Source of the DNA: Pseudonocardia sp. HH130630-07
GTDB lineage: Bacteria > Actinomycetota > Actinomycetes > Mycobacteriales > Pseudonocardiaceae
DNA length: 64,000 nucleotides
Direction of reading: 5' to 3'
Assembly: GCF_001698125.1 (NCBI RefSeq)
Contig: NZ_CP013854.1
Coordinates: 3,534,001-3,598,000 of the forward strand
Made by a program: the position numbers and the translations under genes. Positions 32,379 to 59,851 of the stretch are shown here, piece by piece; positions within the stretch are counted from its first letter, which is position 1; each line of letters opens with the position of its first letter. The notes below the pieces were generated by a model. The model worked only from the letters and a program-made list of their open reading frames with translations, made no database searches and was not told the DNA's origin.

Positions 32379-32381
32379 TAG
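31484..32381 (+). CDS. IS5-family transposase in two frames (orfA/orfB with +1 shift)
   Basis: OrfA starts at the GTG at 31484 and runs to 31936. It contains the helix-turn-helix DUF4096-type part (LTDAQWARLAPLLP, GLPWRDVPAEFGPW) and VDSTIIRAHQHAA with the first catalytic Asp. The C-terminal half is read in the +1 frame: DHALGRSRGGLSTKIHQ, RVRADKAYSSRAIRR, RNVVECGFCHVKQWRGLATRYDK, ending at 32381. The shift probably occurs near the G-run at about 31833-31837. IS427 relatives often use programmed frameshifting, but a simple indel would look the same. The stop codon uses the flanking TAG. Confidence 0.8.
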
Positions 32382-32495: not shown

Positions 32496-32511
32496 CTTCA
32501 TGGAGGTGGAC

Positions 32512-37957: not shown

Positions 37958-40900
37958 GTGTCCGACGACGACCGGCTGTCACGCGCCGAGATCCGCGCCC
38001 TGGTCGCGGAGCAGCTGGGTGTGGGTCCGGAGGAGATCGCCGACGACGACAATCTCGTCGAGTTCGGTGTGCACTCGCTGCGGATGATGAAGCTGGCATC
38101 GGCGTGGCGCAGGCGGGGCTACGAGGTGACGTTCGGCGACCTCGCGCAGGTGCCGTCGGTCCGGGGCTGGCACGAGCTGCTGAGCGGACGAGCGACGGTC
38201 GCGGAGCCGGCCCCGGCGGTGGAGCGGTCGACCCCGGACGACCCGACGTTCCCGCTCGCGACCATGCAGCACGCCTACTGGGTGGGGCGCACCGACGAGC
38301 AGGAACTCGGCGGTGTCGCCGCCCACCTCTACGCCGAGTTCGACGGCGTCGGTGTCGAGCCGGATCGGCTGCGGCACGCCGTCGGCCGGCTGGTCGAGCG
38401 CCACCCGATGCTGCGCAGCCGGTTCCTCGACAACGGCCGTCAGGAGGTCCTCGACCGGCCCGGGGTCGAGGTCTTCGCGGTCGTGGACCTGCGGGAGGAG
38501 GACCCGGACACCGTGGCCGCACGGCTTGCCGAGCTCCGGCACACGAAGTCCCACCAGCGGATGCGGGCCGACCGCGGGCACGTGTTCGACGTGACCCTGA
38601 CCCGGTGCCCCGGCGGACGGACCCGGCTGCACGTGGACGTCGACATGCTCGCGGCGGACGCGCTGAGCTACCGCACCCTGCTCGCCGACCTCGCGACCTT
38701 CTACGCGGGGGACACCCTGCCCGAGCTGGGCTACGACTACCGCTCCTACCTCGGCGACCACGACCGGGCCGCCGCCGTGTCCCGCGAGCGGGAGCGGGCG
38801 TGGTGGCTGGAGCGGTTGCCGGACCTGCCTGCGCCGCCGGAACTGCCGCTCGTGCCGGAGGGTGAGCGGGCCGATCCGCTGCTCACGGTCCGCTACGCGC
38901 ACCCTCTGGGGGCGGCGTCGAAGCAGCGCCTGCTCGCCCGGGCCCGCGAGCACGGCGTCACCCCGGCCGTGGTCCTCGCCTCGGTCTTCGCCGAGGTGGT
39001 CGGCCGGTGGTCGCGCACCCCGCGCTTCCTGCTCAACGTGCCGTTGTTCGACCGCGAGCCCCTGCACCCCGACGTAGACCTGCTCGTCGGTGACTTCTCC
39101 AGCTCGATCATGGCCGACGTCGACGTCAGTGCTCCCGGCGAGTCGCTCGTCGACCGCGCCCGGCGGATGCAGTCACGGCTGCACACCGCCGCCGCACACG
39201 CGGCGCTGCCCGGTCTCGATGTGCTGCGCGAGCTCGGCCGCTTCCGCGGTGAGCCGCTGCTGGCTCCGGTCGTCTACACGAGCGGTCTGGACCTCGGCGA
39301 GCTGTTCCGCGACACGGTCTCCTCCACCTTCGGCACCCCGGTCCACATCATCTCCCAGGGCCCCCAGGTCGTGCTCGACGCGCAGTGCGTCGAGCTGGAC
39401 GGCGGGCTGCTGGTCAACTGGGACGTGCGCGAGCATGCCTTCCCTGACGGCGTGATGGCGGCGATGTACGCCCGCCACCGGGAGCTCGTCGAGGGCCTCC
39501 TGGCGGACGACCCCGATGCCTGGACCCGGCCGCTGGACGACGGTCTGCCCGCGGGCCAGCGCGATGGCCGGGCGGTCCTCGACGGCCCGTCGGTGCCGCA
39601 GAGCGGCCGACGGCTGCACGACGGCCTTCTCGCGACGGCTGAGCGCGAGCCCGAGCGCCCCGCCCTGCTCGACGCCGAGGGCGCGGTCACGACCTACGGC
39701 GAGCTGCGCGAGCGGGGTCTGCGGATCGCCGGCGCGCTGGCGGCCCGGGGAGTGGGCCGCGGGGACACCGTGTCCCTGCAGCTGCCCAAGGGGCCCGACC
39801 AGGTCGCCGCCGTGCTCGGGGTGTTCCTGGCGGGCGCCGCCTATGTCCCGGTCGGCGCGGACCAGCCCGCCGCTCGTCGCGACCGCATCCAGGCCGCGGG
39901 TGCCGTGCGGCTCGCGCTGGTCGCCGACGACCTGCTCGACGACCAGCGCGTCCCGGCGCTCGGGTTCGCCGCGGCGCTCACCGCGGATCCTTCGCCCGAG
40001 CCGGTGGCGACCACCGCCGCGGACCTCGCCTATGTGCTGTTCACCTCGGGATCGACCGGCGAACCGAAGGGTGTCGAGATCCCGCACTCCGCAGCGGTCA
40101 ACACCGTGGAGCGGTGCAACGAGCTCTTCGACGTCGGCCCGGACGACCGGTCCCTCGGGCTGTCCTCGCTGGAGTTCGACCTGTCCGTGCAGGACGTGTG
40201 GGGGCCGCTGTCGGTCGGCGGCTCGGTCGTGGTGCCGCAGGAGCGGGACCGTCGTGACGGCCAGCGGGCCGCGGCCCTCCTGCGCGCCCACGGGGTCACC
40301 CAGCTCTACTGTGTGCCCGCGCTGCTCGACATGCTCCTCGCCGCCGGCGAGGAGCACGGCCTCGGCGACCGGCTGCGCACTGTGATCGTCGGTGGTGACT
40401 GGGTGGGGGTCGACCTGCCGCGCAGGCTCCGTGCGCTCGTCCCCCGCGCCCGCTTCGCGGGGCTCGGCGGCGCGACCGAGACCGCGATCCACCACACCGT
40501 CTGCGAGGTCGGTCCGCAGGTTCCCGACGACTGGGCGGCCGTCCCGTTCGGCGTCCCCTTCGGGAACGTCGCGGCCCGGGTCGTCGACGAGGCGGGCCGG
40601 GACTGCCCGGACTGGGTGGCGGGCGAGCTCTGGATCGCCGGCGCCGGGTTGGCCCGCGGCTACCGTGGCGACCCGGACCGGACCGCGGAGCGGTTCGTTG
40701 AGCACGCCGGGCGGCGCTGGTACCGCACCGGCGACCTGGTCCGGTTCCGGCCCGAGGGCCAGGTCGAGTTCCTCGGCCGCTGCGACGACCAGGTGAAGAT
40801 CCGCGGCTACCGGATCGAGCCGGGCGAGGTCGAGGCCGCGCTGCGTGCGGTACCGGGCGTCCGCGCCGCGGTCGTCGAGGTCGTGGGGGAACGCACCTGT

Positions 40901-41437
40901 TCGCTGGCCGCCGCGGTGACCGTCGAACCCGGCACCGACCTGCCGGTCGACAGGCTGCGCGAGACGGCGGGGGAGTCCCTACCGCCTTACATGGTCCCGC
41001 GCACCGTGGTCGTGCTCGACGCGCTGCCGCTAACCGGTAACGGCAAGATCGACCGACGCGCGGTGCGCCGGGCACTGCTCGGCAGCGACACCGCGCCCGA
41101 CCACGTCGCGCCCGAGGGTGACCTCGAGACCGCGCTCGCCGAGATCGTCGGCGAGGTGCTCGGGGTACCGGAGGTCGGGGCGGAGACCGACTTCTTCGCC
41201 CTCGGCGGGGATTCCGTGCTCGGGACGCTCGCCGTGGCCCGGATCCGAGAATGGCTCGACACCTCCGACGTGGCGGTGGGTGACCTCTACACGGGCAGAC
41301 ACGTCCGAGGGCTGGCGGCGCGGCTGTCCGCCCGGCAGCGCACCCCGGGCCGGCTCGAACAGGTCGCCGCAGTGTTCCTGGAGGTCTCCCGGATGTCGGA
41401 CGCGGATGTCCACGCCGACGCCGTCGGCGGGTCGTGA
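37958..41437 (+). CDS. NRPS, ArCP-Cy-A-PCP (phenyl-oxazoline/thiazoline synthase, MbtB-like layout)
   Basis: 1159 residues from the GTG at 37958 behind AAAGGGG. Residues 1-80 are an aryl carrier domain with Ser40 in EFGVHSLR. A heterocyclization domain follows with D229-x4-D234-x2-S237. Then come an adenylation domain (YVLFTSGSTGEPKG from 692, RTGDL, NGKIDRR) and a peptidyl carrier with Ser1086 in LGGDSVLG. The chemistry expected is condensation of an aryl acid with Ser, Thr or Cys and ring closure. The A4 block reads FDLSVQDVWG, with Gln where Tyr is usual in cysteine-activating relatives, so the amino acid is left open. There is no thioesterase. Confidence 0.9.
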   Translation: MSDDDRLSRAEIRALVAEQLGVGPEEIADDDNLVEFGVHSLRMMKLASAWRRRGYEVTFGDLAQVPSVRGWHELLSGRATVAEPAPAVERSTPDDPTFPLATMQHAYWVGRTDEQELGGVAAHLYAEFDGVGVEPDRLRHAVGRLVERHPMLRSRFLDNGRQEVLDRPGVEVFAVVDLREEDPDTVAARLAELRHTKSHQRMRADRGHVFDVTLTRCPGGRTRLHVDVDMLAADALSYRTLLADLATFYAGDTLPELGYDYRSYLGDHDRAAAVSRERERAWWLERLPDLPAPPELPLVPEGERADPLLTVRYAHPLGAASKQRLLARAREHGVTPAVVLASVFAEVVGRWSRTPRFLLNVPLFDREPLHPDVDLLVGDFSSSIMADVDVSAPGESLVDRARRMQSRLHTAAAHAALPGLDVLRELGRFRGEPLLAPVVYTSGLDLGELFRDTVSSTFGTPVHIISQGPQVVLDAQCVELDGGLLVNWDVREHAFPDGVMAAMYARHRELVEGLLADDPDAWTRPLDDGLPAGQRDGRAVLDGPSVPQSGRRLHDGLLATAEREPERPALLDAEGAVTTYGELRERGLRIAGALAARGVGRGDTVSLQLPKGPDQVAAVLGVFLAGAAYVPVGADQPAARRDRIQAAGAVRLALVADDLLDDQRVPALGFAAALTADPSPEPVATTAADLAYVLFTSGSTGEPKGVEIPHSAAVNTVERCNELFDVGPDDRSLGLSSLEFDLSVQDVWGPLSVGGSVVVPQERDRRDGQRAAALLRAHGVTQLYCVPALLDMLLAAGEEHGLGDRLRTVIVGGDWVGVDLPRRLRALVPRARFAGLGGATETAIHHTVCEVGPQVPDDWAAVPFGVPFGNVAARVVDEAGRDCPDWVAGELWIAGAGLARGYRGDPDRTAERFVEHAGRRWYRTGDLVRFRPEGQVEFLGRCDDQVKIRGYRIEPGEVEAALRAVPGVRAAVVEVVGERTCSLAAAVTVEPGTDLPVDRLRETAGESLPPYMVPRTVVVLDALPLTGNGKIDRRAVRRALLGSDTAPDHVAPEGDLETALAEIVGEVLGVPEVGAETDFFALGGDSVLGTLAVARIREWLDTSDVAVGDLYTGRHVRGLAARLSARQRTPGRLEQVAAVFLEVSRMSDADVHADAVGGS

Positions 41438-42801
41438 CCGTCGCCGACGCGCGTCGGCGGCTGTTCGCCGACCGGCTGCGCCGCGTCGGGCTGGCCCGCT
41501 CCGAGGAGGAGCGGACCGGCCCGGGGGTGGACCGGGACCACGCGCTGCCGTCGTTCGCCCAGCTGCACGCCTGGCGACATCAGCAGCAGGTCCCGGGCAG
41601 CGTCGCCAACAACCTCGGGGTGCGCTTCACCCTGCGCGGCGACCTCGATGAGCGGGCCCTCGCCACAGCCCTGGACACGCTCTCTGCGCGACACGAGGTC
41701 CTCCGTACGACCTTCCACTCCGGCACGGAGCCGTGGGTCAGGGTGCACGACGCGCTGCCCGTACCCGTCGAACGGCTCGCCGTCTCGGACCCGGACGAGG
41801 TCCCGGGGCTGCTTGCCCGACGCACCGCGGTGCCGTTCGACCTCGCCGTCGGTCCGCCGTGGCGGATCGTGCTCGTCCGGAGCCGACCCTACGAGTGGGA
41901 GCTCCTGCTGGTCGTGCAGCACCTCCTGTGGGACGGGCCGACCTTCGCCGTGTTCTGCAGCGACCTGGGCACGGCCTACCGCGCGGCCCTGACGGGGGCC
42001 GAGCCGGACGGCGAGCCGCCGGGGCGGTCGCTCGTCGAGATCGCCGCCGAGGAACGTGCCGGGTGGCGTGGACGGCCGACCGCGGACGAGGACCGGCGCT
42101 ACTGGACGGATCGGCTCACCCCGGCGCCCGCCTTGGGCGGGGAGCCGGTGGGGGAGCGCGGCGCGCGGACCGACCGCAGGCTGGGGGCGGTCACCCCGGA
42201 GCGGCTGCGGGCCGCGGCGCGGGCGGCCGGGGTGACGCCGTTCGCGGTGGCGATCTCCTGCTGGGCGCAGGTGTGGGGCGCCCACACCGGCACCGACGAC
42301 GTCGCTGTCGGCACGCTCGCGGTGCGACGTGGGCCGGAGGAGGCCGCCCTGATGGGGAACTTCGCCAACCCGGTCACGCTGCGGCTGGACCTGTCCGACG
42401 GGGCGGACGCCGCCACCCGGTTGCGGCGGGCCGCGGACGAGTGCGCCGCCGCCCTCGCCCACGCCGACCTGCCGTTCCTGCCGCTGGCGGAGGAGCTCGC
42501 CGGGCACGACGGCACCGGCTCGGTCCCGTTCTTCGACAGCATCGTCGTGTTCCTCGCGGGTGACCTGGAGGGACCGCGGCTGCCGGGGCTCGCGGTCGAC
42601 TGGGCGCGCGTCGACCACGGTGGTGTGCAGTTCCCGCTGGTCCCGGTGGGGGTGGAGATCTTCGTCCGCGCCGCGGGGATCGACGTCCAGCTGACCCGCG
42701 ACCGTGACCGTGTCACCGGCGAGCAGGCCGGGAGGCTGCTCGACCGTCTCGACGACGCGCTGCGCGACACCGTCGAGGCCCTGGTGGAGCAGACCTCGTG
42801 A
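41434..42801 (+). CDS. Stand-alone NRPS condensation-domain protein
   Basis: 455 residues from a GTG overlapping the upstream stop (GTGA). It has condensation-fold landmarks: [22 protein letters not shown], then Q162-H163-LLW-D167-G168 in place of HHxxxDG, and [13 protein letters not shown] near the C-terminus. The catalytic second histidine is kept, so activity is possible. It could join the aryl-azoline unit to the next amino acid or to an external amine. Confidence 0.85.
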
Positions 42802-42980
42802 CGTGCGACCCGGTCCGCGTCGGCCCGGGGACGACCCGCGCCGGGCGGCTCCGGGCGCCGTGCACCACCCACTCCCACACCCGGCGACGAACGGCCCCGA
42901 CGGACATCCGTCCCGTCGTCACCGTCGCTCCCGTCCGCGACCGGCTGCACCCGGCCCGACCCGTGCGAGGTATCCGATGA
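42798..42980 (+). CDS. Sixty-codon frame bridging two NRPS genes, doubtful
   Basis: It starts at a GTG overlapping the condensation-protein stop (GTGA) and ends in a TGA overlapping the next ATG (ATGA), filling the only gap in the NRPS operon. The product would be Arg/Thr/Pro-rich ([20 protein letters not shown] near the end) with no known domain; it is not MbtH. Third-position GC is high, but so is second-position GC, which argues against real coding. It may only carry ribosomes across the gap. Confidence 0.25.
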
Positions 42981-45900
42981 CCCTCTCGATCGACCGGCGG
43001 GAGCTGCTGCGCCGCAGGCTGGCCGCCACCGGGCTCGACCGCTCACCGGAGTCGGTCGCGGACGACCGGCCCACCCCCGGCGCCGCCGGGCCCGAAGGCA
43101 CCGCGTCGGTACTGTCCGCGGCCCAACGGCGGATGTGGTTCCAGCAGCAGCTCACCGGTGACGGCCGGGCCTACACGTTCTGCCTCGTCCTGCGCCCACA
43201 CGGACGCCTCGACGCCGGCCGCCTCACCGCGGCGCTGCGTGCCGTCGTGCAGCGGCACGCCGTCCTGCGCACCACCTACCACGTCGGTGACGACGGCGAG
43301 CCGGTCCAGGTCGTTCGCAGCGACCTCGCCGTGGAACCGTCCGAGGTGGAGCTCGACGACTCCGCGGACACGACGGTCGACGCCGCCGCAGCAGCCGCTC
43401 GGGACGAGCCCTTCGACCTCACCACGGACGCCGCTCTGCGGGCGCGGTTCCTGACACGGAACGGCGGGATCGTGGCGGTGGTCCTGACCGTGCCGCACAT
43501 CGCCGCCGACGGCGAGTCCTTCCCGGTCGTGCTCGCCGACCTGCAGCGCGCTCACGACGGCGGGCTGCTCGAGGTGCCGCCGAACGAGGTCCGCTACGCC
43601 GACCACGCCGTGTGGCTGGCGTCGCGGCTGGGTGATCCGGCGGATCCCGGATCGGGGGCGACCGCCCGGCTGGCGTTCTGGGAGCGGACCCTCGCCGGGC
43701 TCCCGGTGGAGACCGTGCTGCCCGCCGACCGGCGTCGCGGAGCCCGGCCCAGCCACCGCGGCGGCCAGCACCGGGTGCGCCTCGGGCCGGGACTCGCCGC
43801 GGCCCTGGATCGGCTCACGGCGGCTCGCGGGGTCAGCCGGTTCGTCCTGCTGCAGACCGCAGTCGCGGTTGTGCTCGCCCGGCACGGTGCCGGGCGGGTG
43901 GTACCGCTGGGCAGCCCGGTGGACCTGCGCCCCGGCCCCGACCAGTCGGGCATCGTCGGGTTCTTCACCAACACCGTGGTCCTGCGGACCGACGTGGGCG
44001 GGGATCCGACCGGTGCCGAGCTGCTCGACCGCGTGCAGGCCGCGGACGTCGCGGCGCTGGACCACCGGGAGGTGGCGTTCGAGGACGTGGTCGAGCGGAT
44101 GGGGCCGCAGCGTCATCCCGGCCGCAACCCGCTCTTCCAGGTCATGGTCTCCGCCACCCGCGCCTGGCCGGACCTGTGGCTGGGCGGGGTCCCGGTGCGT
44201 GCGTTCGAGCCGAGCCAGGACCAGGCCCGGTTCGACCTGACCTTCCTCGTGCACGACCACCTCGACGGCGGCCCACCCGGTCTGTCGGTGCTCTACGCCC
44301 ATGACCTGTTCGACGCGGACACCGCGGCGGGGCTCCTGGACTCGGTGGTCGCCGCGCTGGGGCAGCTGGTCCGGCACCCGGACATGTGCGTCTCCGGGCT
44401 CGCCGGGTGGGGGCCCGGGGAGCCGGTCCGGGAGGACCCACCGGAGTCGAGGCGCACGCTGCGTCTGCGTCCCGGCACGTCGGGCACCGCCGTCGCCGCC
44501 GTGCTGCACCGGCTGCACGCCGAGCACCAGGCGTTGCGCACGACCCGGCCGGCGGAGGCCTTCGAGGAACCGCTGGGTGGCCCGCTGTTGCGGGCCCACG
44601 TGGACGGTGACCTGCTGCACCTCGTCACGCGGGGGCTGGACGAGGAGTCGTGGCGGCCGATCCTGGGTGCCTTCGTCGCGCTGCGCGCCGACCCCGCGAA
44701 CGTCCCCGACGTGCCTGCCGGGCCGGCGGACCGGTCCGGTCTGCTCGCCGAGCGGGCCGCGCGTGCGCAGGACCCCGGGATCGTCGACGTGGCGGAGGCG
44801 TGGGTGGACCTGTTCGAGCGGATCGACGCGGTGCGGCCCGCGCCGCGGCCCGCACCGGAGTGCCCACGGATCGCCGTGCGTGAGGTGCCCGTGGGGCGAC
44901 CGGCCGCCCGGCAGGTGGTCACGGCCGCGGTGGCGGCCGCGATCTCCGCGTTCGGCGACGCGGACCCGCTCGTGCTCTCCGTCGACGAACCCGACCGCGA
45001 CCGGCGGGTGGGGGACACGGCCGTCGTCGGGCGGTGCAGGAGGACCTACCCCGTGCTCGCTCCCGGCGATGGGCACGATCCGGAGCTGCCGGGGCCCGAC
45101 GCGGCCGTCGGGTACGGCATCGCCGCGGAGCTCTCGGGCCACACCGCGGGTGTGCTCGACGCCCCGCCCGTCCCCGACGTCACCGTCACGGTGGCGCTGA
45201 CCGATCTCGGTGACGACCCGCCCGGGCCACCGGCGCCGACCGGTGAGCGGGAGATCGCGGTGACCGTCGACGCCCGCGGAGGGGCGGTGCTCGCCCTCCG
45301 TGGCCCGGGCGCCGAGGTCGAGGCGGCCGCCGACCGGGCGGTCGCGGCCTTCGCCGCCCGGCTCGCCGAGGTCGTGGCCCTGGCTCCCGAGCATCCTGCG
45401 GGCGATCCCGCTCCCGGCACCTACGGCGACGCCCTGACCGTCGCGCCTGCGCAGCGTCGCAGGCTGGCGGACCGGTTCGGGCGGCTGCGGGCGGTCCTCG
45501 GGCTCTCCCCGCTGCAGGAGGGACTGCTGTTCCACCTGCTCGCGGCAGCGGACGACACGCAGGTCGACGACGTCTACCTCACGCAGACCGCGCTGACCCT
45601 CACCGGCCCGGTCGACCCCGACCGCCTGGGCGCCGCCGTCGCCGAGGCGGTCCGCCGGGCCCCCACGATCGCGGCGGGCTTCGCCGAGGTGGGGACACGC
45701 GCGGTGCAGGTCGTTCCCGCCGATCCCCGGGTGCCGTTCCGGTACCTCGCCGCGGCCACGGACGCGGAGGCCGAGGCTGCCGCCGCGGCGGAGCTCGACG
45801 GTCCCTTCGACGCAGCGGCGCCGCCGATGGCTCGATTCGCCCTGGTCGGGCTGCCCGACGGGCGCCACCACCTCGTCTTCACCGCCCACCACGTCCTGGT

Positions 45901-48900
45901 CGACGGATGGTCGATCCGGCTGCTGCTGCTGATGGTGCTGCGGCTCTACACCGATCCCGACGCGGTGGCCGCGCCGCCACCGTTCCGGGTCTACCTCGAC
46001 TGGCTCGACGGCCGGGACGACGACGAGTCGGAGCGTGCGTGGCGGCCCCTGCTCGACGGCATCACCCCGACCCTGCTGTGCCGCGACGCGGACGGCGTCG
46101 CGGCGACCCGGACGCAGACCGACGAGCTCACCGCGACCGTCCCCACCGATCTCGACGCCGCGGTCACCGCCCTGGCCCGCGCGACCGGGACCACCGCGGG
46201 CGGGGTGGCGGAGCTGGCCTGGGCGCTGGTCCTGATGCACACCACCGGGAACTCGGACGTCGTGTTCGGCACGGTGGTCTCCGGCCGCCCACCCGAGCTC
46301 GACGACGTCGAGCAGATGATCGGGCTGCTGTTCACCACGGTCCCCGCGCGGGTGCGGGTCCGCCCGGGCCGGACCGCGCGCGAGGTGCTCACCGAGCTGC
46401 ACGCGCAGCGCGGCGTCCGGCTCCAGCACTCCCACCTCGGTCTGTCCCGGCTCCAGCGGCTCGCGGGCCACCCGACGCTGTTCGACACGCTGTTCGTGGT
46501 GCAGAACCTGCCTGGTGCCGCGCCCGACGAGCGTTTCGGTCCGGCCGGGGACGTACGGATCGTCGACGCCGACGTCCGCGACGCCACGCACTACCCGGTC
46601 GGCATGGCGGTGACCCCCGCCCCCGAGGGCACCGCGCTTCGGCTGATGTTCCGCTCCGACGCGGTCGGCCGGGCCGAGGCACGCTCACTGATGGACCGCT
46701 ATCTCGCCGCACTGCGGGCGATCACGGCCGCCCCCGACCTGGCCCTGCACCGCATGGACCTGCGCGACGCGGAGGAGCGGGCCCACGAGGTCCTGGAGGG
46801 TGTCCGCGGACCCGTGGGGGAGGACTCGGTCGCCGACCTGCTCGAGGCCCAGGCCGCGCGCACCCCGGAGGCCACCGCGGTGGTGGCGGACACGGTCTCG
46901 GTGAGCTTCGCGGAGCTCACCGGGGCCGCCCGGCGGCTCGCCCGGCTGCTCCGCTCCCGCGGGGCGGTGGAGGAGCAGCGCGTGGCCCTGCTCCTGCCGC
47001 GGTCCGAGGTGATGGTCGTCGCCCTGTTCGGGGTGTTCGCCGCGCACACCGCCTACGTTCCGATCGACGCCGGGTACCTGGCGGGGCGGATCGCCGCGAT
47101 GATCGAGGAGAGCGGCCCCACCGTCGTCCTGGTGAGCACCGCGACGGTCGGGCTGCTGCCCGACGCGCTGCGGGGCGATCCGCGTGTCGTCGTGCTGGAC
47201 GCGCCGGAGACGGTCGCGGAGCTCGACGCGCTCCCGGCTGGCCCACTGTCGCAGGCGGAGAGGCCGCGCCCGGCAGGCCTCGACCACCTCGCGTATCTGA
47301 TCTTCACCTCAGGCTCGACCGGGCGGCCCAAGGGGGTCGAGGTGTCCTACCGCGGGCTCACCAACATGTTCGACAACCACCGCACCGAGATCTTCGACCC
47401 GGTCACGGCCGCACACCCCGGGCGCGGGCTGCGCATCGCGCACACCACCTCGTTCTCCTTCGACGCCTCATGGGAGCAGCTGCTGTGGCTGCTCGCCGGG
47501 CACGAGGTGCACGTGATCGACGACGAGATGCGCCGGGATCCCGACCGCCTCCTCGCCCACTTCGACCGGGTCCGGATCGACGCCTTCGACGTCACCCCGA
47601 CCTACGGCACCTATCTCGTCGAGGCCGGGCTGCTGGACCGTCCCCGACCACGTGCGGACACCGGGCGGTCCGACGCGACCGGTGTCGTGTTCGTGTCCCT
47701 CGGCGGCGAGGCGGTCGGCGAGCGGCTGTGGACACAGCTGCGGGCGGGGCGCGGGGTCGGCGGGTACAACCTGTACGGGCCGACGGAGTACACGATCAAC
47801 GCGCTGGGGGCGGACGTCGCCGACAGCGCGACCCCGAGCCTCGGCCTCCCGATCCGCAACACCCGCGCGGCCGTGCTCGGTGCGGGCCTGCTGCCGGTGC
47901 CGCCGGGTGCGGTCGGCGAGCTGTACCTCGCGGGCACCGGACTGGCCCGCGGGTACCACCATGCGCCGGGCCCGACCTCGACACGGTTCGTCGCCTGCCC
48001 CTTCGGCGAGCCGGGTGAGCGGATGTACCGGACGGGCGATCTCGTGCGGCAGCGACCGGACGGTGCGCTGGACTACCTCGGACGGGCGGACGAGCAGCTC
48101 AAGGTGCGGGGGGTGCGCGTCGAGCCCGCTGAGATCGTCGACGTCCTGGTCCGGCACGCCGCCGTCGGCCAGGCCGCTGTGGTGGGGGTGGACGACGGCC
48201 CCGCGGGGACCCGGCTGGTGGCCCATCTCGTGCCCGCGGCCGGGGCGACCGCACTCGACGTGGACGCCGTGAGGACGCACGCGGCGGCGCACCTGCCCGC
48301 CGCCCTGGTCCCCTCGGGCTGGTCCGTTCTCGACACCCTGCCCCGGACGGTCAACGGGAAACTCGACGCCGCCCGGCTCCCGGCCGTCGAGGGCCGGGCC
48401 GGCGGGTCCGCACCGCCCGAGACCGAGGAGGAGCGACGGGTCGCCGAGATCGTCGGCGAGGTGCTCGGCACGGGACCGGTGGGTGGGACCGACGACTTCT
48501 TCGCCCTCGGCGGGCATTCGCTGCTGGCGGTGCGGCTGGTCTCACGGCTGCGCACGGAGCTGGATCTCCCCGTCGGGGTCCGGGACGTCTACCAGGACTC
48601 CACGCCGGCCGCGCTGGCCCGCCTCGCCGCCGGTCCCCGATCGGGCCCGTCGGGGCTCGGCCCGGTGCTCGACCTGCGCGCGGGAGACCGGCCCGCCGTG
48701 TGGTGCCTCCCGCCCGCGGGCGGACTCGGCTGGGCCTACGCCGGCCTGCTCGCGCACGTCGAGTCGGACCGGCCGGTCCACGCCCTGCAGGACCCCGGGC
48801 TCGACGGCGGGCCCGCCGTCGCCGACTTCACCGCGCTGGTGGAGCACCACCTCGCGATGCTGCGTCGGCGCCGTCCGCAGGGTCCGTACCACCTGGTCGG

Positions 48901-49432
48901 CTGGTCCTTCGGCGGGCAGCTCGCCGTCGCGATGGCGGCCCGGCTGCGCGGGTCCGTCGCTTCGGTGACCCTGCTCGACTCGGTGCTGGCGACCCTGCCA
49001 CCGGGAGCCGAACCCGAACCCGACGAGGTGCTGCACCGGGAGGCCGTCGGGTTCCTAGCCCGCTCGGCGGGGGTCGACCCCGCGCTCGGGCTCACCGGGC
49101 TCGCGGACCTCGCGGCCCGCGGAGAGACCCTGCTGGGCGGTCTCGACCGGACCGGGCTGGAGCGGATCGTGGACGCCTACCTGCGGCACAGCCGGATGAT
49201 GGAACGCGCGGGCGTCGACCCGTACGACGGTGAGGTCCTGCTCGTCTCGGCGACCGCCGACAAGTCCGCCGCGCTGCGCGCCGAGCGGGACGCGGGGTGG
49301 CGTCGCCATCTGGGCGGCGAGCTGACGGTGGTCGACGTCGACGTCGACCACCACGGTGTCGGCACCGGGGCGGGCTGGCGGCGGATCGGTCCGCTCCTGG
49401 CCGAGCACCTGACCCGGACGGAGGCCCGATGA
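42977..49432 (+). CDS. NRPS, C-E*-C-A-PCP-TE
   Basis: 2151 residues from the ATG at 42977 (GAGG six bases upstream). Condensation domain 1 (about 40-480) has P173-H174-IAA-D178-G179. Residues 490-860 form an epimerization-like domain with SW and PVLAPG and GYG landmarks, but V550-T551 replace the two histidines. Condensation domain 2 has intact H971-H972-VLV-D976-G977. The adenylation domain follows ([14 protein letters not shown] from 1440; A4 FDASW), then a carrier with Ser1848 and a thioesterase with Ser1977 in GWSFGG and a late His in DHHGVG. The TE probably releases or cyclises the product although another NRPS gene follows. The adenylation substrate was not deduced. Confidence 0.88.
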
Positions 49433-52400
49433 GCACGTCCGACCTGGCTGCGCGCCGCGAGCTGTTCCGGCGCAGGCTCGCCGAGCGGGACCTCGAGAGC
49501 GCGGACTCCGGGCGGGTCACCCGCCGCGACAGCGACCGCGGGCCACTGTCGTTCGCCCAGCGACGGATGTGGCTGCACCAGCAGATCGCACCCGCGAGCC
49601 ATGCCTACAACGTCACGATCGCCACGACCTTCCGCGGCCCGGTCGACGACGGCCGCCTGCACGCCGCACTGCTCGGCGTGGTCGAGCGGCAGGAGGCACT
49701 GCGCACCACCTACCACCTGCTCGACTCCGGCGAGCCCGAGCAGCGGGTGCACGCGGAGCTCCCGCCGCCGGTGCAGCGGCTCGACCTGCGCGAGCGGCCG
49801 GACACGCTCGGCGGTGTCCTCGACGTCGCGGCTCGGACGCCGTTCGACCTGGCGGAACGACCGCTCCGGCTGGTGGTGGCCCGTACGGCGGTCGACGAGG
49901 TCGTCGTGTGTCTGGTCGTCCACCACATCGTCTGGGACGGGCTGTCCTACGCCTGCTGGAGCCGCGACCTCACCGCGCTCTACGCGGGCGCGACACCCGG
50001 TCGCACCGAGGTGGGCCCCGCGGACCTGGCGGCGCACGAACAGCACCGGTGGCCCCCACCGTCCCACGACGAGGACCTGGCCTTCTGGCGTGCAACGCTG
50101 GCCGACCCGCCCGCGCCGCCGACGCTGCCGAGCGGTCGCATCGCCCGGGGCCCGGCCACCGAGCGTGCCGAACGGGTCCGGGTCACGCTGCCGGCCGGCA
50201 CACCCGCGGCGCTGCGCTCGATCGCGCGCCGGCACGGGACCACGGACTTCGTCGCGTTCCTCGTCTGCCATCTGCTCGTGCTGCGGCGATTCACCGGAGC
50301 CGTGGACCTCACCGTCGGTACCACGGCGATGGAACGGGAGACTCCCGGTGCCGACGAGCTGGTGGGCAACTTCGGCAACACCCTGGCCCTGCGGGTGGAC
50401 ACCGGCGCGGCGACGGTCGGCGATCTGGTCGACCGGGTCGCGGAGGCCTGTGCCGGTGCGTTCAGCCATCGCGCGTTCTCCTTCGACCGGCTCGTCGACA
50501 CGCTGGGGCCACCCCGTGAACCGGGCCGCCCGCCCTGGTTCGACTCCCTGCTGGTGTTCCTGTCGGGTGAGGTCCGCGGGCCTGCGCTGCCCGATGTCGA
50601 CGTCCGGTTCGAGTCGGTGTTCGCGGGCGCGACCCCGTTCCCCCTCACCGTCCACGCCTTCGTCTTCCCCGACCGGTTCGACGTCGACGTCCACTTCGCC
50701 GCCGACCTGTTCGACCCGGTGACGGTCGGGGCGATGGCCGATGCGCTGGGATCGATGCTGCTCGCGGTAGCCGCGGATGCCGACCGCGCGGTCCCGGATC
50801 TGCTCTCCGCCGTCCCCGTCCCCGTCCCGGTCCTCGCCGAGGGGCCCTCTGGCGGCGTGGTGGCGGAGTCCGTCCCCGAGGCAGTGGCGCGCCGGGCCGC
50901 CACCGATCCGCGCGCCGTCGCGGTGCTCGCCGAGGCCGCCGCCGACGGGGAGACCACGCTCACCTACCGGGAGCTCGTCCGGCGGGCCGAGGACCTGGCC
51001 GGTCGGCTGGCCGCGCTGGGGGCCGGGCCCGAGACCGTCGTCGGGGTGGCCACCGACCGCTCGGCGGACCTCGTGGTGGGGGTGCTCGGGGTGCTCACCG
51101 CCGGTGCCGCGGTCCTGCTGCTGGACCCCGCCCACCCGACGGCCCGGCTGCGGGCCCTGCTCGCCGACAGCGGCACCCTCGCGGTGGTGGCCGGACCCGG
51201 CCGGGCGGACATCGTGCCGCCCGGGCGGCCGGTCGTGGACCCCCGGGCCGACGGCGGGTCGGGGTGGACCGCGCGACCGGTCCACCCGGACTCGGCGGCC
51301 TGGATCGGGTACACGTCGGGCTCGACCGGTGTGCCCAAGGCCATCGTCGTGTCGCACGCCGCGCTGCTCGCGCGCGCCGGATGGGCCCGGGAACGCTGGC
51401 CGGTCGGTCCCGGCGAGCCGCGGCTGGCCAAGAGCCCGGTGACGTTCGTCGACGCGATCAGCGAGATCGTCGAGACGTTGGTGTCCGGCGGCACGCTGGT
51501 CGTCGCCGACGAGGCGAAGATCCGAGACGGGGTGGCCCTCGCCGAGCTGCTGCGCAGACACGGTGTCCGCCATCTCATGGCGGTCCCGGGGCTGCTGGCG
51601 GCGATCGCGGACGCGCATCCGGACGCGTTGCGTGGGCTGGACCGGCTCGTCTCGACCGGGGAGGCCCTCACCTCGGGCTCGGCGTCCGCGCTGGCCGCGC
51701 TGGTCGACGACGGTGTCCTGCGGAACTCCTACGGCTGCGCGGAGCTGGCCGGTGACGTCGTCGACGGTCCGGTGCCCGCCGCCGTCTCGCCGGGCTGGGC
51801 GCACCCGGTCGGCGAACCCGGCCCCGGCGTCCGCGCGCTCGTGCTCGACCCGCGGCTGTGCCCCGTCGCGCCGGGCGCCGTCGGCGATCTCTACATCGGC
51901 GGTCTCCAGGTCGCCCGCGGCTACCAGGGAAGGCCCGGGGCGACGGCGGAGCGGTTCGTCGCCGATCCGCTCGGGTCCGGTGGCAGGCTGTTCCGCACCG
52001 GGGACCGGGCGCGCCGCGGACGCTGGGGGCTGGAGGTCCTCGGCCGTGGCGACGACCAGGTGAAGATCCGTGGCCAGCGGGTGGAGCTCGGCGAGGTCGC
52101 CGAGGTCGCCCGCGGCGCCGAGGGTGTCCGGGCGGCCGTCGCGTCGCTGCGCCCAGGAGCCGTGGGGGAGCGACTGGTGCTCCATGTCGTCGGTGATGCG
52201 GAGCCCGCCGCCGTCGAGGCACACCTGCGCGGTCGGGTGCCCGACGCCATGGTGCCCGCGGCGGTCGTGGTGGTGGGCGAGCTGCCCCTGCTGCCCAACG
52301 GCAAGGTCGACCGTGCCGCGCTGCCCGAGCCCCCCGCGGTCGTGAACCGGGACCGTCGGGCCGCCGGGACCCCGGCCGAGCGCGACCTGTGCCGTGTGGT

Positions 52401-53589
52401 GGGTGAGGTGCTCGGGATCCCCGACGTCCGCCCCGAGGACGACTTCTTCCTCCTCGGCGGGGACAGCATCAGCGCGATCCGGCTGGTCGCCGCGGCGCGG
52501 CGAACGGGCAGGCCGCTCGACGTGGCCGGGGTGTTCGCCGCCCGCACCGTGGCGGCGCTCGCCGCGTCGGCCCCGGACCGTGCGCAGGCCGCGGAACGAC
52601 CGGTCCTGCTCGACCCCGGGGCGCACCGGCTCCGTCGCGCCGGTGTCGGGCCCGTCGCCGCAGTTCTCACGCTGGCGGTTCCCGGCACCGCGAGGGTCGG
52701 GCCGGAGCGGCTGCGCGCCGCGCTCACCGAGGTCGCCGCCCGGCACGAGGCGCTGCGTCTGCGGGTTCGTGCCGGTCGCCGTGGCCTCTGGCGCGCCGCC
52801 GTCCTCGGGCCGGACGATCCGGCGGCGGCACCATCGGTCGTGACCGGCGGGGTGGCCGATGCGCTCGCCGCCCTGGCCCACGGCGGCGTCCTCGCTGCGC
52901 TGGTCGGGCCGGAGGGGACGACGCTGGTCGGTGCGGTCACGGGCCTGGACGCCACGTCGCTGGCGACGGTCGGTGCCGAGCTGACCGTGCTGCTCGACGG
53001 TGGGGCACCCGCCGGCCCCGGGAGCGACTGGCCGGCCCCCACCGTGGCCGGGGACGACGGCACCGCGTGGGGCACGGCGCTCGGCGAGGTCCCCACCCAC
53101 GATCCCGCCGGCCTCCCCGCGGACACCGACGGCGAGTCGGGTGGACGCTGCGCGAGGGGCCCGGTCCCGGGCCCGATCGACGAGGCCCACCTGGTCGCGG
53201 CGTTCGCGGTCGCGGTGCGCGAGCGGAGCGGCCGGGCGACCGCGGTGATCGACCGGGCCGTCCGTGGCCCGGCCACCGGGGTCGGCCCGCTGACCTCCAC
53301 CCATCCGCTGACGGCGACGGCCGGGACGTCGGTGGAGGACGTCGCCGAACAGGCGCGAGCGGGATCCGCCCACGCCGCGGGACGGCCCGGTCCGTCGGCC
53401 GGATCGCCGGTCCCCGACGTGCGGGTGGAGGTCGTCCCCGCCGGGCTGGAACCGGCCGGGGTGGCCCCGTACCGGGTCGTGGCGATGGCGGGCCTCGACG
53501 GGACCCTGCAGGTCGTGGTGGGGCCGGGGCTGCCCGCTGACCTGGCCGCGGACCTGCTGGAGCGTTGGTGGGAGGTGCTGGCCCAGTGA
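49429..53589 (+). CDS. NRPS, C-A-PCP-E*
   Basis: 1386 residues from an ATG overlapping the previous stop (ATGA). The condensation domain has H165-H166-IVW-D170-G171. The adenylation domain ([14 protein letters not shown] from 625) has an unusual A4 ([12 protein letters not shown]) with Asp and Glu, seen in some enzymes for modified or basic residues. A carrier with Ser1013 in [11 protein letters not shown] is followed by about 330 residues of epimerization-like fold that lacks the histidines (A1169-V1170 before LD1174-ATS). By gene order it comes last, yet it has no thioesterase. It should act before the TE-bearing protein. Confidence 0.88.
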
Positions 53590-53624: not shown

Positions 53625-55274
53625 TCAGCCCACCAGCAGGGCGGTCAGGGCCTTCTTGTCCATCTTGCCGAGGGGGGTCAGCGGCATGCTCTCGATCAGC
53701 CGGACCTCGTCGGGGACCTTGTACGCGGCGACCCCCCTCCCGTCCAGGTGGGCGGCGAGCGCGGCGCGGTCGGGTCGATGCCCGTCGCCCGCCACGACGA
53801 ACGCGACGGACCGCTCGCCCAGCTCCTGGTCGGGCCCCGCGACCAGCGCGACGGACCGGACGCCGGGATGGGCCAGGAGATGCCCCTCCACCTCCGTCGC
53901 CGCGATCTTCTCTCCCGCCCGGTTGATCTGGTCCTTTGCCCGGCCCACGACAGCCAGGTGGCCCGAGGGCAGCCGCCGCACCATGTCGCCGGTGCGGTAG
54001 AAGCCGTCGGCGGTGAAGCTGCGGGCGTTGTGCGCCCCCGCCCGGTAGTAGCCCCGGAGCGTGTACGGACCGCGGGTCAGCAGCTCGCCCTCCTCCCCGT
54101 CGGGGACCTCCGCGTCGTCCGGGCCGACGACCCGGGTCTCGTCGGCGTCGGAGATCGGGCAGCCCTGTGTCGTCGTCCGCAGCCGGTCGTCCTCGTCGAG
54201 CCTGCTCAGCGACAGCATCCCCTCGGCCATGCCGAACACCTGCTGCAGCCGCGCCCCGAACTCGGCGACCACCCGACGAGCCGTGTCGTCGGCCAGCCGG
54301 GCACTGCCGATCTGCAGGACCTGCAGGCTGGAGAGGTCCGCGGAGGTGAACTCGCGCTCGTCGAGCCACAGGGGAGTCAGCTGTGGGTTGATCGCCGCGT
54401 GGGTGACCCGCTCGCGTTCGATCAGCTCGAAGCAGTAGCCGGGGTCGGGCGTTCCCGCCATGACGACCGTGCCGCCCTGTCCCAGCGCACCGAGCACACC
54501 GGGGCAGTTCATCGTGTAGTTGAAAGCGACCGGCAGCGTGGCGAGGTACACGCAGCCCTCGGCCATCCCGGCGACCTCGGCCGCCCGTCTGCCGTTGTAG
54601 GCGTAGTCGTCGTGAGTGCGGGGGATGAGCTTGGGCAGACCGGTCGTGCCGCCGGAGAGCAGCAGCACGGCGATGTCACCGGGGCCGGCGGTCGAGGCGG
54701 GCGCACCGGCGGGCTCGGTGTGGCCCGTGGCCTCCAGCTCCGCCACCGTCACCGCACCCGTCCGGTCGCCCGGGTCGCCGAGCACCACCAGCAGCTCGAG
54801 GCTCGGCACCGCGGCCCGCACCTCGTCGGCCAGTACGCGGTGGTCGAAGCCCGCGTGGACGTCGGGCAGGACATAGGCCCGCGCTCCGCAGAGCGAGGCC
54901 AGGTGGGTCATCTCGCTGCGGCGATGGCCGGGCTGGGTGTGGACCGGGACCGCCCCGATCTTCTGCAGGGCCCACCACACCACGAGGAACTCACTGCGGT
55001 TGGGCAGCTGCACCAGGACCCGGTCGGCGGTACCCAGCCCGCGGTCGGACAGCCCACGTGCCACCCGGTCGGCGAGGGCGTCGAGCTCGCGGTAGGTGAG
55101 CCTGCGGTGGTCGTCGACCACCGCGGTGCGGTCCGCATAGGCGTCGACGAGTCGGGCCAGGACCTGCCGATACGTCTCGCCGCGCCAGAGGCCGAGCTCC
55201 CGGTAGCGATCGGCGAGCCCGCCGGGCCACGGGGTGAGGTCGAGTTCGGCGAGGGCGGTGTGATCGGTGCTCAT
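53625..55274 (-). CDS. Aryl-acid AMP ligase for siderophore synthesis (EntE/DhbE/MbtA family), salicylate-type pocket
   Basis: 549 residues from the ATG at 55274 with GGAGGA eight bases upstream. It has adenylation motifs [27 protein letters not shown] and [14 protein letters not shown], and C-terminal [10 protein letters not shown]. The family loads an aryl acid onto the aryl carrier domain, here the one at the start of the first NRPS. The pocket stretch FNYTMNC (251-257) contains Asn for the carboxylate. It ends in Cys, where 2,3-dihydroxybenzoate enzymes have Ser and salicylate enzymes have Cys. Salicylate is therefore favoured. No salicylate synthase gene is in the window. Confidence 0.88.
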
Positions 55275-55330
55275 GCTGCTGTCCTCCGATCGGCCTATAC
55301 AGACCGACAATCAGTGACTATAGTTTACTA

Positions 55331-56171: not shown

Positions 56172-56926
56172 GCGACTGGCTGCACCGGGTGCGCCCGGTG
56201 TCCGGGGCGCAGAGGACCACGACGGGAGACCGGCTCGTCGTGTGGCCGCACGCGGGCGGGTCGCCGGCGGCGTTCGGGTCGTTGGCGGCGGCGCTCCCGG
56301 AGATCGAGGTGTGGGGGATCGTCCCACCGGGACGTGGGCTGCGGCTCGACGAGGAGGCCGTGGTCGAGCCGGACGCGGCGGTCGCGGGGGCGGTCCGCGC
56401 CCTCGACGCGCTGCCGGGTGCCCCCGGGCGCACCGTCGTGTTCGGGCACAGCCTGGGCGGTGCGATGGCCGCGCGACTCGCCGCACACCGAGGATGCGAC
56501 CTGCTGGTCGTCTCCGGGTGGCCGGGACCCGGTCGGGTACCGCCGTCGCCGGTCGGCCGGGCGGCCGAGGAGCTCGACACCGCGGCCCTGCTGGAGTTCG
56601 TGGACCGGCTCGACGCGCCGGGGCGGGTCGAGCTGCGTGACCCCGAGCTGCAGCCGTTCCTGCTCCCGCCGTTGCTCGCGGACCTGCGGATGGGCGACCG
56701 GGTCGCCGCGTCGACGCCGGCCAGGCCCGGGATGCCGGTGGTGACGGTCGCGGGGCGTGCGGACCCGGCCTTTGGCGTCTCGGAGATCGCCGGCTGGGCC
56801 GAGCACGTGGACGTCGTCGAGGCGGTGGTCCTCGACGGCGGGCACTTCGCCGTGCTGACCGACGTCACCCCGGTCGCCGCCGCGATCCGACGCGCCCTGG
56901 CCACGAACCCGGTGGGTCTCCCGTGA
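56168..56926 (+). CDS. Type II thioesterase
   Basis: 252 residues from an ATG overlapping the end of the hydrolase frame. It has WPHAGGSPAAFGSLAAAL, then IVPPGRGLRLDE, the nucleophile in VFGHSLGGAMAARLA, and the late GGHF histidine. Such enzymes clear wrongly primed or stalled carrier domains and are common in NRPS operons. Its start depends on coupling to the hydrolase frame, so the in-frame TGA upstream might reduce its translation. Confidence 0.88.
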   Translation: MSDWLHRVRPVSGAQRTTTGDRLVVWPHAGGSPAAFGSLAAALPEIEVWGIVPPGRGLRLDEEAVVEPDAAVAGAVRALDALPGAPGRTVVFGHSLGGAMAARLAAHRGCDLLVVSGWPGPGRVPPSPVGRAAEELDTAALLEFVDRLDAPGRVELRDPELQPFLLPPLLADLRMGDRVAASTPARPGMPVVTVAGRADPAFGVSEIAGWAEHVDVVEAVVLDGGHFAVLTDVTPVAAAIRRALATNPVGLP

Positions 56927-58458
56927 CCGGACCGGGGGATCGCCACGAGCGGCTCGACGCCCTGCTCACGGACTCGGCACGGGCGAGCCCGCGCCGGATC
57001 GCGCTGGTCGACGGGGCGATCCGGCTGACCTACGCCGAGCTGGAGGCGCGGGTCGTGGAGCTGGCCGCCCGGTTGGTCGGACACGGGGTCGGACCGGGCT
57101 CCGCGGTGGGCATCCTGGTCCCGAAGGGGCACCGGGCGGCCGTCGCGCTGCTGGCCGGGCTGCGCGTCGGGGCGGTGGTGGCGCCGCTCGCGCCGAACGA
57201 CCCACCCGCCCGGCTCGCCCGGATGGCCTCGGGGGCCGGGCTCGACGTAGTCCTGGCACCGACGCCGGACGGGGCACGCCGTGCCGCGGTGGCCGCCGAG
57301 CTGGGAGTGCCCGGTGCCGAGGCCGCCGTCGGCGACGGCCTGTCCATGCTCCGCCTCGACCTGCCGCGCACGTGGGGCGCGCCCGACGGCGGGTACATCC
57401 TGTTCACCTCGGGCAGCACCGGATGGCCCAAGGGTGTCCTGCTGACCCACCGGAACGTGCTGCATTTCGTCCGCTGGGCGGTGCGGGCCCTCGACATCGG
57501 GCCCGACGACGTGTTGGGCGCCCAGGCCGCGCTCACCTTCGACCTGTCCACACTCGACGTGTTCGGCGCACTGGCCGCGGGCGCGTGCGTCACCCTGATG
57601 CCCGAGGTTCTCACCGCGTTCCCGCTCGACGTCGTCGCGTGGCTGGCGGCCGAGCGGGTCACCGTCTTCTACACGGTGCCCACCCTCTACCAGCGGATCG
57701 TCGAGGCCGGCGCGGACACCGGGACCCTGCCCACGCTGCGGACACTGCCGTTCGCCGGCGAGCCCTATCCGGTCGCGGGCCTGGAACGGCTCGTCCGCGC
57801 GTTCCCCGACGCCCGGATCGCCAACCTGTACGGCCCGACCGAGACCAACGTCTGCACCTGGACCACCCTCGCCCCGGACTGGCTGGCCGGGGACGGGCTG
57901 CCCGTGGGCCGGGCGATCGATGGCCTGTGGGTCGGACTCCTCGCCGGGGACGGCACCCTCCACACCGGGCCCGGACCGGGCGAGGTCGCGGTGGCCGGAC
58001 CCACGGTGTTCCGGGGCTATCTCGTCGAGGGTGGGCTGGAGGACCCGACCGTCGCCGTGGAGCTGCCCACCGGACCCGCCCGGGCCTACCGCACCGGCGA
58101 CCTCGGCAGGATCGACGCCGACGGCGTGCTCTGGCTGGCCGGGCGACGGGACCACCAGGTCAAGGTGCGCGGACACCGGATCGACCTGGCCGACGTCGAG
58201 GCCGCCGCCGGTGAGGTCCGGGGCGTCCGCGCCTGCGCCGCCCACGTCCGACCGGGGCCCGACGGCGGCACCCTGGTCCTGGTCGCGGCGGCCGCGGACG
58301 TCGTCGCGGAGAACGCCCTGCGGGCGGGCCTGGCGGCACGGCTTCCCCGGCGGATGCTGCCCGGGGAGATCCACCTCGTGGCGGAGCTGCCCCTCACCGA
58401 CCGCGGCAAGGTCGACCGGGCGGCCGTCGCCGCCCTCGCAGAGCCCGTCTCGGGCTGA
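56923..58458 (+). CDS. Stand-alone amino-acid adenylation enzyme (PltF/prolyl-AMP-ligase-like)
   Basis: 511 residues from a GTG overlapping the previous stop. It is a single adenylation domain with no fused carrier: YILFTSGSTGWPKGVLLTH, A4 TFDLSTLDVFG, NLYGPTETNVCTW, YRTGDLGRI, KVRGHRIDLADVE and GKVDRAAV. The block YGPTETNVCTW is one I associate with prolyl-AMP ligases of pyrrole pathways such as PltF. It should charge the free carrier protein encoded next. Proline is a reasonable first guess but other amino acids are not excluded. Confidence 0.82.
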   Translation: MTGPGDRHERLDALLTDSARASPRRIALVDGAIRLTYAELEARVVELAARLVGHGVGPGSAVGILVPKGHRAAVALLAGLRVGAVVAPLAPNDPPARLARMASGAGLDVVLAPTPDGARRAAVAAELGVPGAEAAVGDGLSMLRLDLPRTWGAPDGGYILFTSGSTGWPKGVLLTHRNVLHFVRWAVRALDIGPDDVLGAQAALTFDLSTLDVFGALAAGACVTLMPEVLTAFPLDVVAWLAAERVTVFYTVPTLYQRIVEAGADTGTLPTLRTLPFAGEPYPVAGLERLVRAFPDARIANLYGPTETNVCTWTTLAPDWLAGDGLPVGRAIDGLWVGLLAGDGTLHTGPGPGEVAVAGPTVFRGYLVEGGLEDPTVAVELPTGPARAYRTGDLGRIDADGVLWLAGRRDHQVKVRGHRIDLADVEAAAGEVRGVRACAAHVRPGPDGGTLVLVAAAADVVAENALRAGLAARLPRRMLPGEIHLVAELPLTDRGKVDRAAVAALAEPVSG

Positions 58459-58479
58459 CCCAGCGAACGGAGAACACCC

Positions 58480-58746
58480 ATGCAGGTCGAAGACGTGTGC
58501 ACCCTGGTGTCGCGCGTGGTCGCGGACGCGAGCGGGGAGACCCCGGAGATCGTGCCCGACACGCCGCTGCTGCTGTCCGGGCTGCTCGACTCGCTGACGA
58601 TCATGCGCATCGTCACCGAGATCGAGTCCGCCACCGGGGTGGCCCTCCCCGAGACGGCGATCGTCGCCCGCACGTTCCGTACCCCCGAGACGGTCCGGGC
58701 CGCCGTCGTCGCGGTGCGGGACGCCACCGCCGAGGCCGGCCGATGA
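58480..58746 (+). CDS. Free-standing acyl/peptidyl carrier protein
   Basis: 88 residues from an ATG behind CGGAGAAC. The phosphopantetheine site is Ser38 in GLLDSLTIM. It sits between the adenylation gene and two flavoprotein genes, as the PltL-type carrier does in pyrrole-2-carboxylate pathways, so oxidation is probably performed on the carrier-bound amino acid. Confidence 0.88.
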   Translation: MQVEDVCTLVSRVVADASGETPEIVPDTPLLLSGLLDSLTIMRIVTEIESATGVALPETAIVARTFRTPETVRAAVVAVRDATAEAGR

Positions 58747-59831: not shown

Positions 59832-59851
59832 CCCGTTCCGAGGAGGAACCG

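Follow-up and report, generated by a model that had tools for sequence, protein, structure and literature searches.

Proteins of nonribosomal peptide synthetases (NRPSs) can be joined at a carrier/condensation (C) or epimerization (E)/C junction by COM, PAX and beta-hairpin docking domains (PMC9113145). In the tomaymycin NRPS, a dead carrier-like adaptor at the N-terminus of the acceptor protein TomB recruits the donor carrier from another chain (PMC11186497), and dead members of the condensation superfamily that recruit P450s have also been described (PMC8097023). The linear gramicidin synthetase LgrA has an inactive E domain after the last carrier of the protein (PMC8150014), and antiSMASH 8 flags inactive E domains and detects interface domains (PMC12230676). 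Here we describe two degenerate E-like domains, X1 and X2, on two NRPS polypeptides (NRPS1 and NRPS2) encoded in a 64,000-nucleotide stretch of Pseudonocardia sp. HH130630-07 (NZ_CP013854.1, positions 3,534,001 to 3,598,000), hereafter called the window, whose own coordinates are used throughout. Our main finding is that X1 and X2 recur as partners in related clusters and are not private relics, which goes beyond a preliminary description of the two domains made from the letters of the window alone. Among open-licence papers we found none that treats E domains, paired or degenerate, as docking units, and the available text of the docking-domain review (PMC9113145) contains no such pair.

NRPS1 (42977..49432, 2151 residues; this and all features of NRPS1 and NRPS2 below are on the + strand) has the organization C1-X1-C2-A-T-TE according to a Pfam scan and the domain layout, and NRPS2 (49429..53589, 1386 residues), whose start overlaps the stop of NRPS1, has the organization C-A-T-X2. 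X1 (44417..45500, about residues 481-841) stands between C1 (43109..44395), an LCL-like domain with the motif PHIAADG that keeps the second His, and C2 (45503..46756, motif HHVLVDGWS), with no adenylation (A) domain or carrier (T) domain before it, an arrangement already recognized in the preliminary description. X2 (52579..53586) is the final domain of NRPS2 and is preceded by a T domain (52384..52566) with the signature GGDSI, which is typical of carriers that precede E domains.

Both domains were found in 15 genomes, which we label G000 (the window genome) onward, with codes such as f32 and g14 for families and genera. They are the window genome, Sciscionella marina DSM 45152 (G374), five genomes of g14, the genus of Crossiella (G246-G250, G249 being Crossiella sp. 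SN42), G383, others of the window's genus (G042, G058, G060 and G001), and G760, G839 and G965 from family f32 of the same class. The two domains go together: a strong X1 was always accompanied by a strong X2 on another polypeptide (15/15), and all eight genomes that were found via one domain also had the other (X1 first in G383, G060 and G001; X2 first in G058, G042, G760, G839 and G965). Their positions were also invariant. X2 was the last domain of its polypeptide with 0-23 residues remaining, and X1 stood directly before a C domain, both in 15 of 15. The block C1-X1-C2 without A or T in between was present in ten genomes (G000, G374, G383, G042, G058, G060, G001, G760, G839 and G965), and in the five g14 genomes X1 was at or near the N-terminus and the X2 gene ran straight into the X1 gene. 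Both genes lay in one neighbourhood of one contig in 11 genomes and on separate draft contigs in four (G058, G760, G839 and G965).

The profile search with X1 covered 341 genomes of the family, of which 12 matched at an E-value of 5.2e-55 or better (eight of them had built the profile) and the next at 1.3e-17. That with X2 covered 335 genomes of the class, with four matches at 1.3e-41 or better, including the window, and the next at 2.0e-29. The final X1 profile was a trimmed one; an earlier version with the start of C2 mostly matched ordinary E-C junctions in the order. A contig scan with the window X1 gave 589 candidate stretches, none of which was confirmed, and scanning with the X2 alignment led to Sciscionella marina and Crossiella sp. 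SN42 as well as to two weak loci in Methylobacterium and Pseudotabrizicola, four in all. A single-sequence search with X2 in 62 genomes of the genus detected only the window's own X2, but X2 was later found in G058, G042, G060 and G001 by profile searches and inspection, so absence in the single-sequence search means little.

With regard to the origin of the two domains, the landmarks of E domains that had been pointed out earlier are present in both, RCRRTYPVL at 686 and AAVGYGIA at 709 in X1 (NRPS1 numbering from 42977) and a 10-residue block at 1285 in X2 (NRPS2 numbering from 49429). In the scan of whole NRPS1 and NRPS2, Pfam assigned no family to X1 or X2, with C, A, T and TE domains assigned around them, and NCBIfam models did not match X1 or X2 alone or their counterparts in Crossiella sp. 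SN42. Reference hidden Markov models (HMMs) were built from 17 canonical E domains and 26 C domains of the loci gathered in this analysis. The window X2 alone scored 18.3 bits against the E HMM and 15.8 against the C HMM, and the window X1 alone 7.3 and 12.5 bits, 7.7 of the latter being due to the beginning of the C domain that follows. Thus, the E landmarks are real but weak, and the window sequences by themselves leave the kinship unsettled. The alignments of homologues were clearer: in hhalign the 15 X1 sequences matched E domains end to end (353 columns, 98.1%, E-value 7.6e-14; 39% against C) and so did the 15 X2 sequences (352 columns, 99.75%, E-value 2.4e-27; 97% against C), and the X1 and X2 alignments matched each other at 97.9%. 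Both are closer to E than to C. Four-sequence profiles of X1 and X2 also matched PvdL in PDB with E-values near 1e-3, a structure that includes an E domain according to its title.

In the structure prediction, which had been proposed as a check, Foldseek placed condensation-superfamily structures at ranks 1-18 for X2 and 1-6 for X1, the list for X1 being a mixture beyond rank 6. The AlphaFold models were poor (X2: predicted local distance difference test, pLDDT, 53.3 and predicted template modelling score, pTM, 0.44; X1: 47.6 and 0.39) and the best-hit TM-scores of 0.23-0.34 support the superfamily only. The models are too poor for arguments on docking.

At the position of HHxxxDG the window reads VTRGLDE in X1 (within V550-W559, 44624..44653) and AVTGLDA in X2 (within AVTGLDATS from A1169, 52933..52959), and the loss at V550-T551 and A1169-V1170 had been described correctly. 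The degenerate site is conserved: the second His is absent in 15/15 X1 and 15/15 X2, versus only 4 of 71 full-length E hits of the fetched loci as control, which argues that its loss is more than chance. The Asp, usually thought to be structural, is kept in 15/15 X1 and 15/15 X2, and the first His persists in 14/15 X2, with the window as the exception, and in fewer than half of the X1 domains. Glu is invariant in X1 (15/15) but stands one residue after the catalytic Glu column of E domains (the EGHGR block), and the idea that X1 keeps the catalytic Glu was therefore rejected. X2 has no consistent Glu at this position, and that of the window lacks both histidines as well as the Glu region. X1 and X2 resemble E domains in the end-to-end profile similarity, an E5-like block, the GGDS[IF] carrier before X2 and a C domain of the D-accepting type after X1, and differ in the second catalytic His (absent in 30/30), the lack of a carrier before X1 and the lack of anything after X2. 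These comparisons support the view that both derive from E domains and would be inactive as epimerases.

Of the four control hits without the second His, two stand at the end of MbtF-like proteins from two order-mate genomes (L093 and L094, genus g53; HVLAADPASW and HVLALDPASW). Like X2, they follow a carrier at the C-terminus and have lost the second His. However, they are much closer to canonical E domains (231 and 220 bits) and no X1 was seen in their loci, and identification of X1/X2 with mycobactin-type terminal E domains was rejected on these grounds. The terminal E domain of L095 keeps HHLVVDGVSW, and dead terminal E domains of mycobactin-type synthetases may deserve a look of their own. 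Separately, an internal E domain of another genome of the window's genus (L129, G047) reads HEILLDPTGW and has lost the second His too, outside any X1/X2 pair seen. Several C domains that follow carriers (L021, L022, L072, L069, L068, L132 and L135) have HHxxxDE instead of HHxxxDG, e.g., HHTAADEWSF and HHHAVDEWSF.

The neighbouring domains were also compared. The carrier before X2 reads GGDS[IF] in 13 of the 13 genomes examined (G246 and G250 are outside that list). In a tree of 64 C domains, the 12 X1-following C2 domains, including that of the window, grouped as a single clade (96/98), in the same half of the tree as the C domains that follow genuine E domains. C1 of the window, G374, G383, G042, G760 and G839 fell in the opposite, after-T half (87/91), and C1 of G058 and G001 follows a real E domain and groups accordingly. 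The C1-X1-C2 block probably arose once, with a later replacement of C1 in one lineage.

Ratios of nonsynonymous to synonymous substitution (dN/dS, Nei-Gojobori method) for X2 were 0.27 and 0.27 for G246 against G250 and G249, the same as in the adjoining A domain, 0.46 for G247, and 0.49 and 0.48 for G058 against G060 and G001. Those for X1 were 0.38 and 0.23 for G250 against G246 and G249, 0.53 for G247, and 0.48 for G760 against G839 and G965. The neighbouring C and A domains gave 0.06-0.41 in the same pairs, and the short T domain (62-65 codons) 0.21-0.77. Thus, X1 and X2 are both constrained (0.23-0.53 outside the pairs with G248), in most cases less tightly than the domains beside them. 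No stop interrupts any of the 30 domains, in a search that looked only in open frames.

We lean, with modest confidence, towards the reading that X1 and X2 are catalytically dead E domains that serve as a matched docking or adaptor pair between two NRPS polypeptides. X2 would close a protein ending in A-T (here NRPS2), X1 would stand before C2, which must accept from the carrier of NRPS2, and binding of X2 to X1 would bring this carrier to the donor side of C2. In genomes with a C1 ahead of X1, the A-T-X2 protein would provide in trans the A-T that is lacking between the two C domains, and the NRPS2 carrier would act both as acceptor for C1 and as donor for C2. A donor carrier in cis is lacking for C2 in 15/15 genomes and an acceptor carrier for C1 in the ten C1-X1-C2 genomes, X2 and X1 occupy the place held by E in C-A-T-E-C, and the A-T-X2 protein offers the missing carrier. 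Mutual binding of X2 and X1 would be the simplest account of this arrangement. The preliminary description had proposed a structural or docking role or a new reaction: the former is supported indirectly by the invariant position, the co-occurrence on two polypeptides (15/15), the purifying selection between near pairs and the missing A-T, and nothing favours the latter. Moreover, other proteins of the cluster start with charged helical-looking stretches and the window X2 ends without an added tail, which we count for docking. The contact between X1 and X2, the use of NRPS2 before NRPS1 and the twofold role of the carrier are inferred.

Several points weigh against this reading. The window NRPS1 and NRPS2 also have N-terminal helical-looking stretches and could dock by ordinary means; the gene order, NRPS1 then NRPS2, is opposite to the proposed order of use; and the contact rests on inference, the single-chain models being poor (pLDDT as given above). 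The 15 genomes carry related clusters, and the co-occurrence is partly common descent. The place of C2 in the after-E half of the tree would be compatible with a D-residue on the carrier upstream. In most comparisons X1 and X2 change faster than the adjoining C and A domains do. In the far pairs with G248 several domains, among them catalytic ones, came close to a ratio of 1 (b protein, 0.63-1.29; a protein, 0.19-0.78), values to which we gave no weight.

Compared with the known systems, COM, PAX and beta-hairpin domains likewise join two NRPS proteins, but they are short helices or hairpins as opposed to two domains of about 320-390 residues here. The TomB adaptor is likewise a pseudo-domain on the acceptor protein, but it has the carrier fold, not the E fold, and its donor has no partner pseudo-domain. 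The dead E domain of LgrA has the position of X2, and to our knowledge no second dead E domain is present on a partner protein there. A more specific version of the proposed docking pair is put forward tentatively as the less probable form: two dead E domains would make up a heterotypic clamp by which a complete A-T unit is placed in trans between C1 and C2 of another protein, with a single carrier receiving from C1 and passing on to C2. With such a clamp, convergent or branched peptide assembly lines would have a joint of their own. Fuscachelin-like siderophores are assembled non-linearly (PMC13251462), and by analogy this would be the kind of pathway where a joint of X1 and X2 helps. Inactive E domains are easily annotated and then ignored, or mispredicted as giving D-residues. 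If the pair is a joint between proteins, it would explain C-C arrangements with a missing A-T, alter the products predicted for a set of siderophore clusters of actinobacteria, offer a large and specific docking pair for engineering, and give a testable case of enzyme domains that were made scaffolds twice, once on each side of an interface.

Other explanations of the two domains have to be weighed against docking. X1 and X2 might be platforms that recruit trans-acting enzymes to carrier-bound residues, the candidates in the window being a stand-alone A domain, a PCP and two acyl-CoA dehydrogenases (56923-61042). Dead condensation-superfamily domains with such a job are known (PMC8097023; PMC12230676), and the clusters of the window and Sciscionella have dehydrogenases and a decarboxylase-like gene. 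The X domain of teicoplanin-type synthetases, a dead recruitment platform of this superfamily, was a Foldseek match for X2 (4tx3, rank 14), but it recruits P450s, none of which was seen among the genes scanned in six clusters, a scan that covered part of the genes. Interface domains of siderophore NRPSs, reportedly described by Reitz in 2019 and cited for antiSMASH 8, share the siderophore setting and are non-catalytic members of the superfamily with a beta-hydroxylase as partner; no beta-hydroxylase was seen in that same scan of part of the genes of six clusters. None of the window's candidates was present among 20 neighbours scanned in the clusters of G383, G042, genus g14 and G060, where we identified transporters, siderophore-interacting proteins fused to methyltransferases, FAD monooxygenases, a formyltransferase, AMP ligases and others. 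No tailoring gene or family common to the clusters examined was found among the scanned genes; the recurring partner of each dead domain is its counterpart. This makes a shared tailoring enzyme less likely, and we regard recruitment in general as unlikely.

Decay would account for the faster change of X1 and X2 than of their neighbours and for the window X2, whose site is more eroded than in related domains; on this explanation they are relics of real E domains that stay as spacers until lost, as the inactive terminal domain of LgrA (PMC8150014) might suggest. We consider this quite unlikely, for the 30 domains lie in open frames without stops (only open frames were looked at), dN/dS is well below 1 in near pairs, and both are always present in the same places in two families. 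Since C2 is of the D-accepting type and groups with the C domains after E, a composite or altered active site of X1 and X2 could instead epimerize or otherwise change the residue on the NRPS2 carrier, to be read by a DCL-like C2. The first His (14/15) and Asp (15/15) of X2, the Glu of X1 (15/15) beside the E4 position and the E-type signature of the carrier would fit such chemistry. However, the second His is absent in 30/30, the window X2 lacks both histidines, and the Glu of X1 is one residue past the catalytic one while that of X2 is inconsistent there, and we hold this last explanation to be about as unlikely as decay.

As for the surroundings of X1 and X2 in the window, a T-Cy-A-T protein (37958..41437, +), which we take to be MbtB-like, shows 49-51% identity to its best match in four order-mate genomes, and is followed by a stand-alone C domain (41434..42801, +, motif QHLLWDG). 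Downstream of NRPS2 are an aryl-AMP ligase (53625..55310, -; best NCBIfam match TIGR02275, DHB-AMP ligase, 597 bits, below its cut-off) and, beyond it, genes for a hydrolase, a thioesterase, a stand-alone A domain, a PCP, two acyl-CoA dehydrogenases and a decarboxylase-like protein. ABC transporter genes lie at 32500-35981, and the whole looks like a siderophore biosynthesis setting. In the part at 56923-62436, with the stand-alone A, the PCP, the two acyl-CoA dehydrogenases and the decarboxylase-like gene, a carrier-bound amino acid looks likely to be oxidised in trans; one of the dehydrogenases is somewhat similar to prolyl-PCP dehydrogenase (77.8 bits versus a cut-off of 650). The region 37958-53589 seems to have one condensation domain beyond what a linear pathway with its carriers needs (stand-alone C, C1, C2 and the C of NRPS2, plus Cy), and the set is identical in Sciscionella. 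The release domain of NRPS1 is a thioesterase in the window (48698-49351) and a thioester-reductase-like NAD_binding_4 domain in Sciscionella (G374), the proteins matching otherwise. Two transposase-like (DDE) genes are located upstream of the cluster (29127-29957, -; 31509-32381, +).

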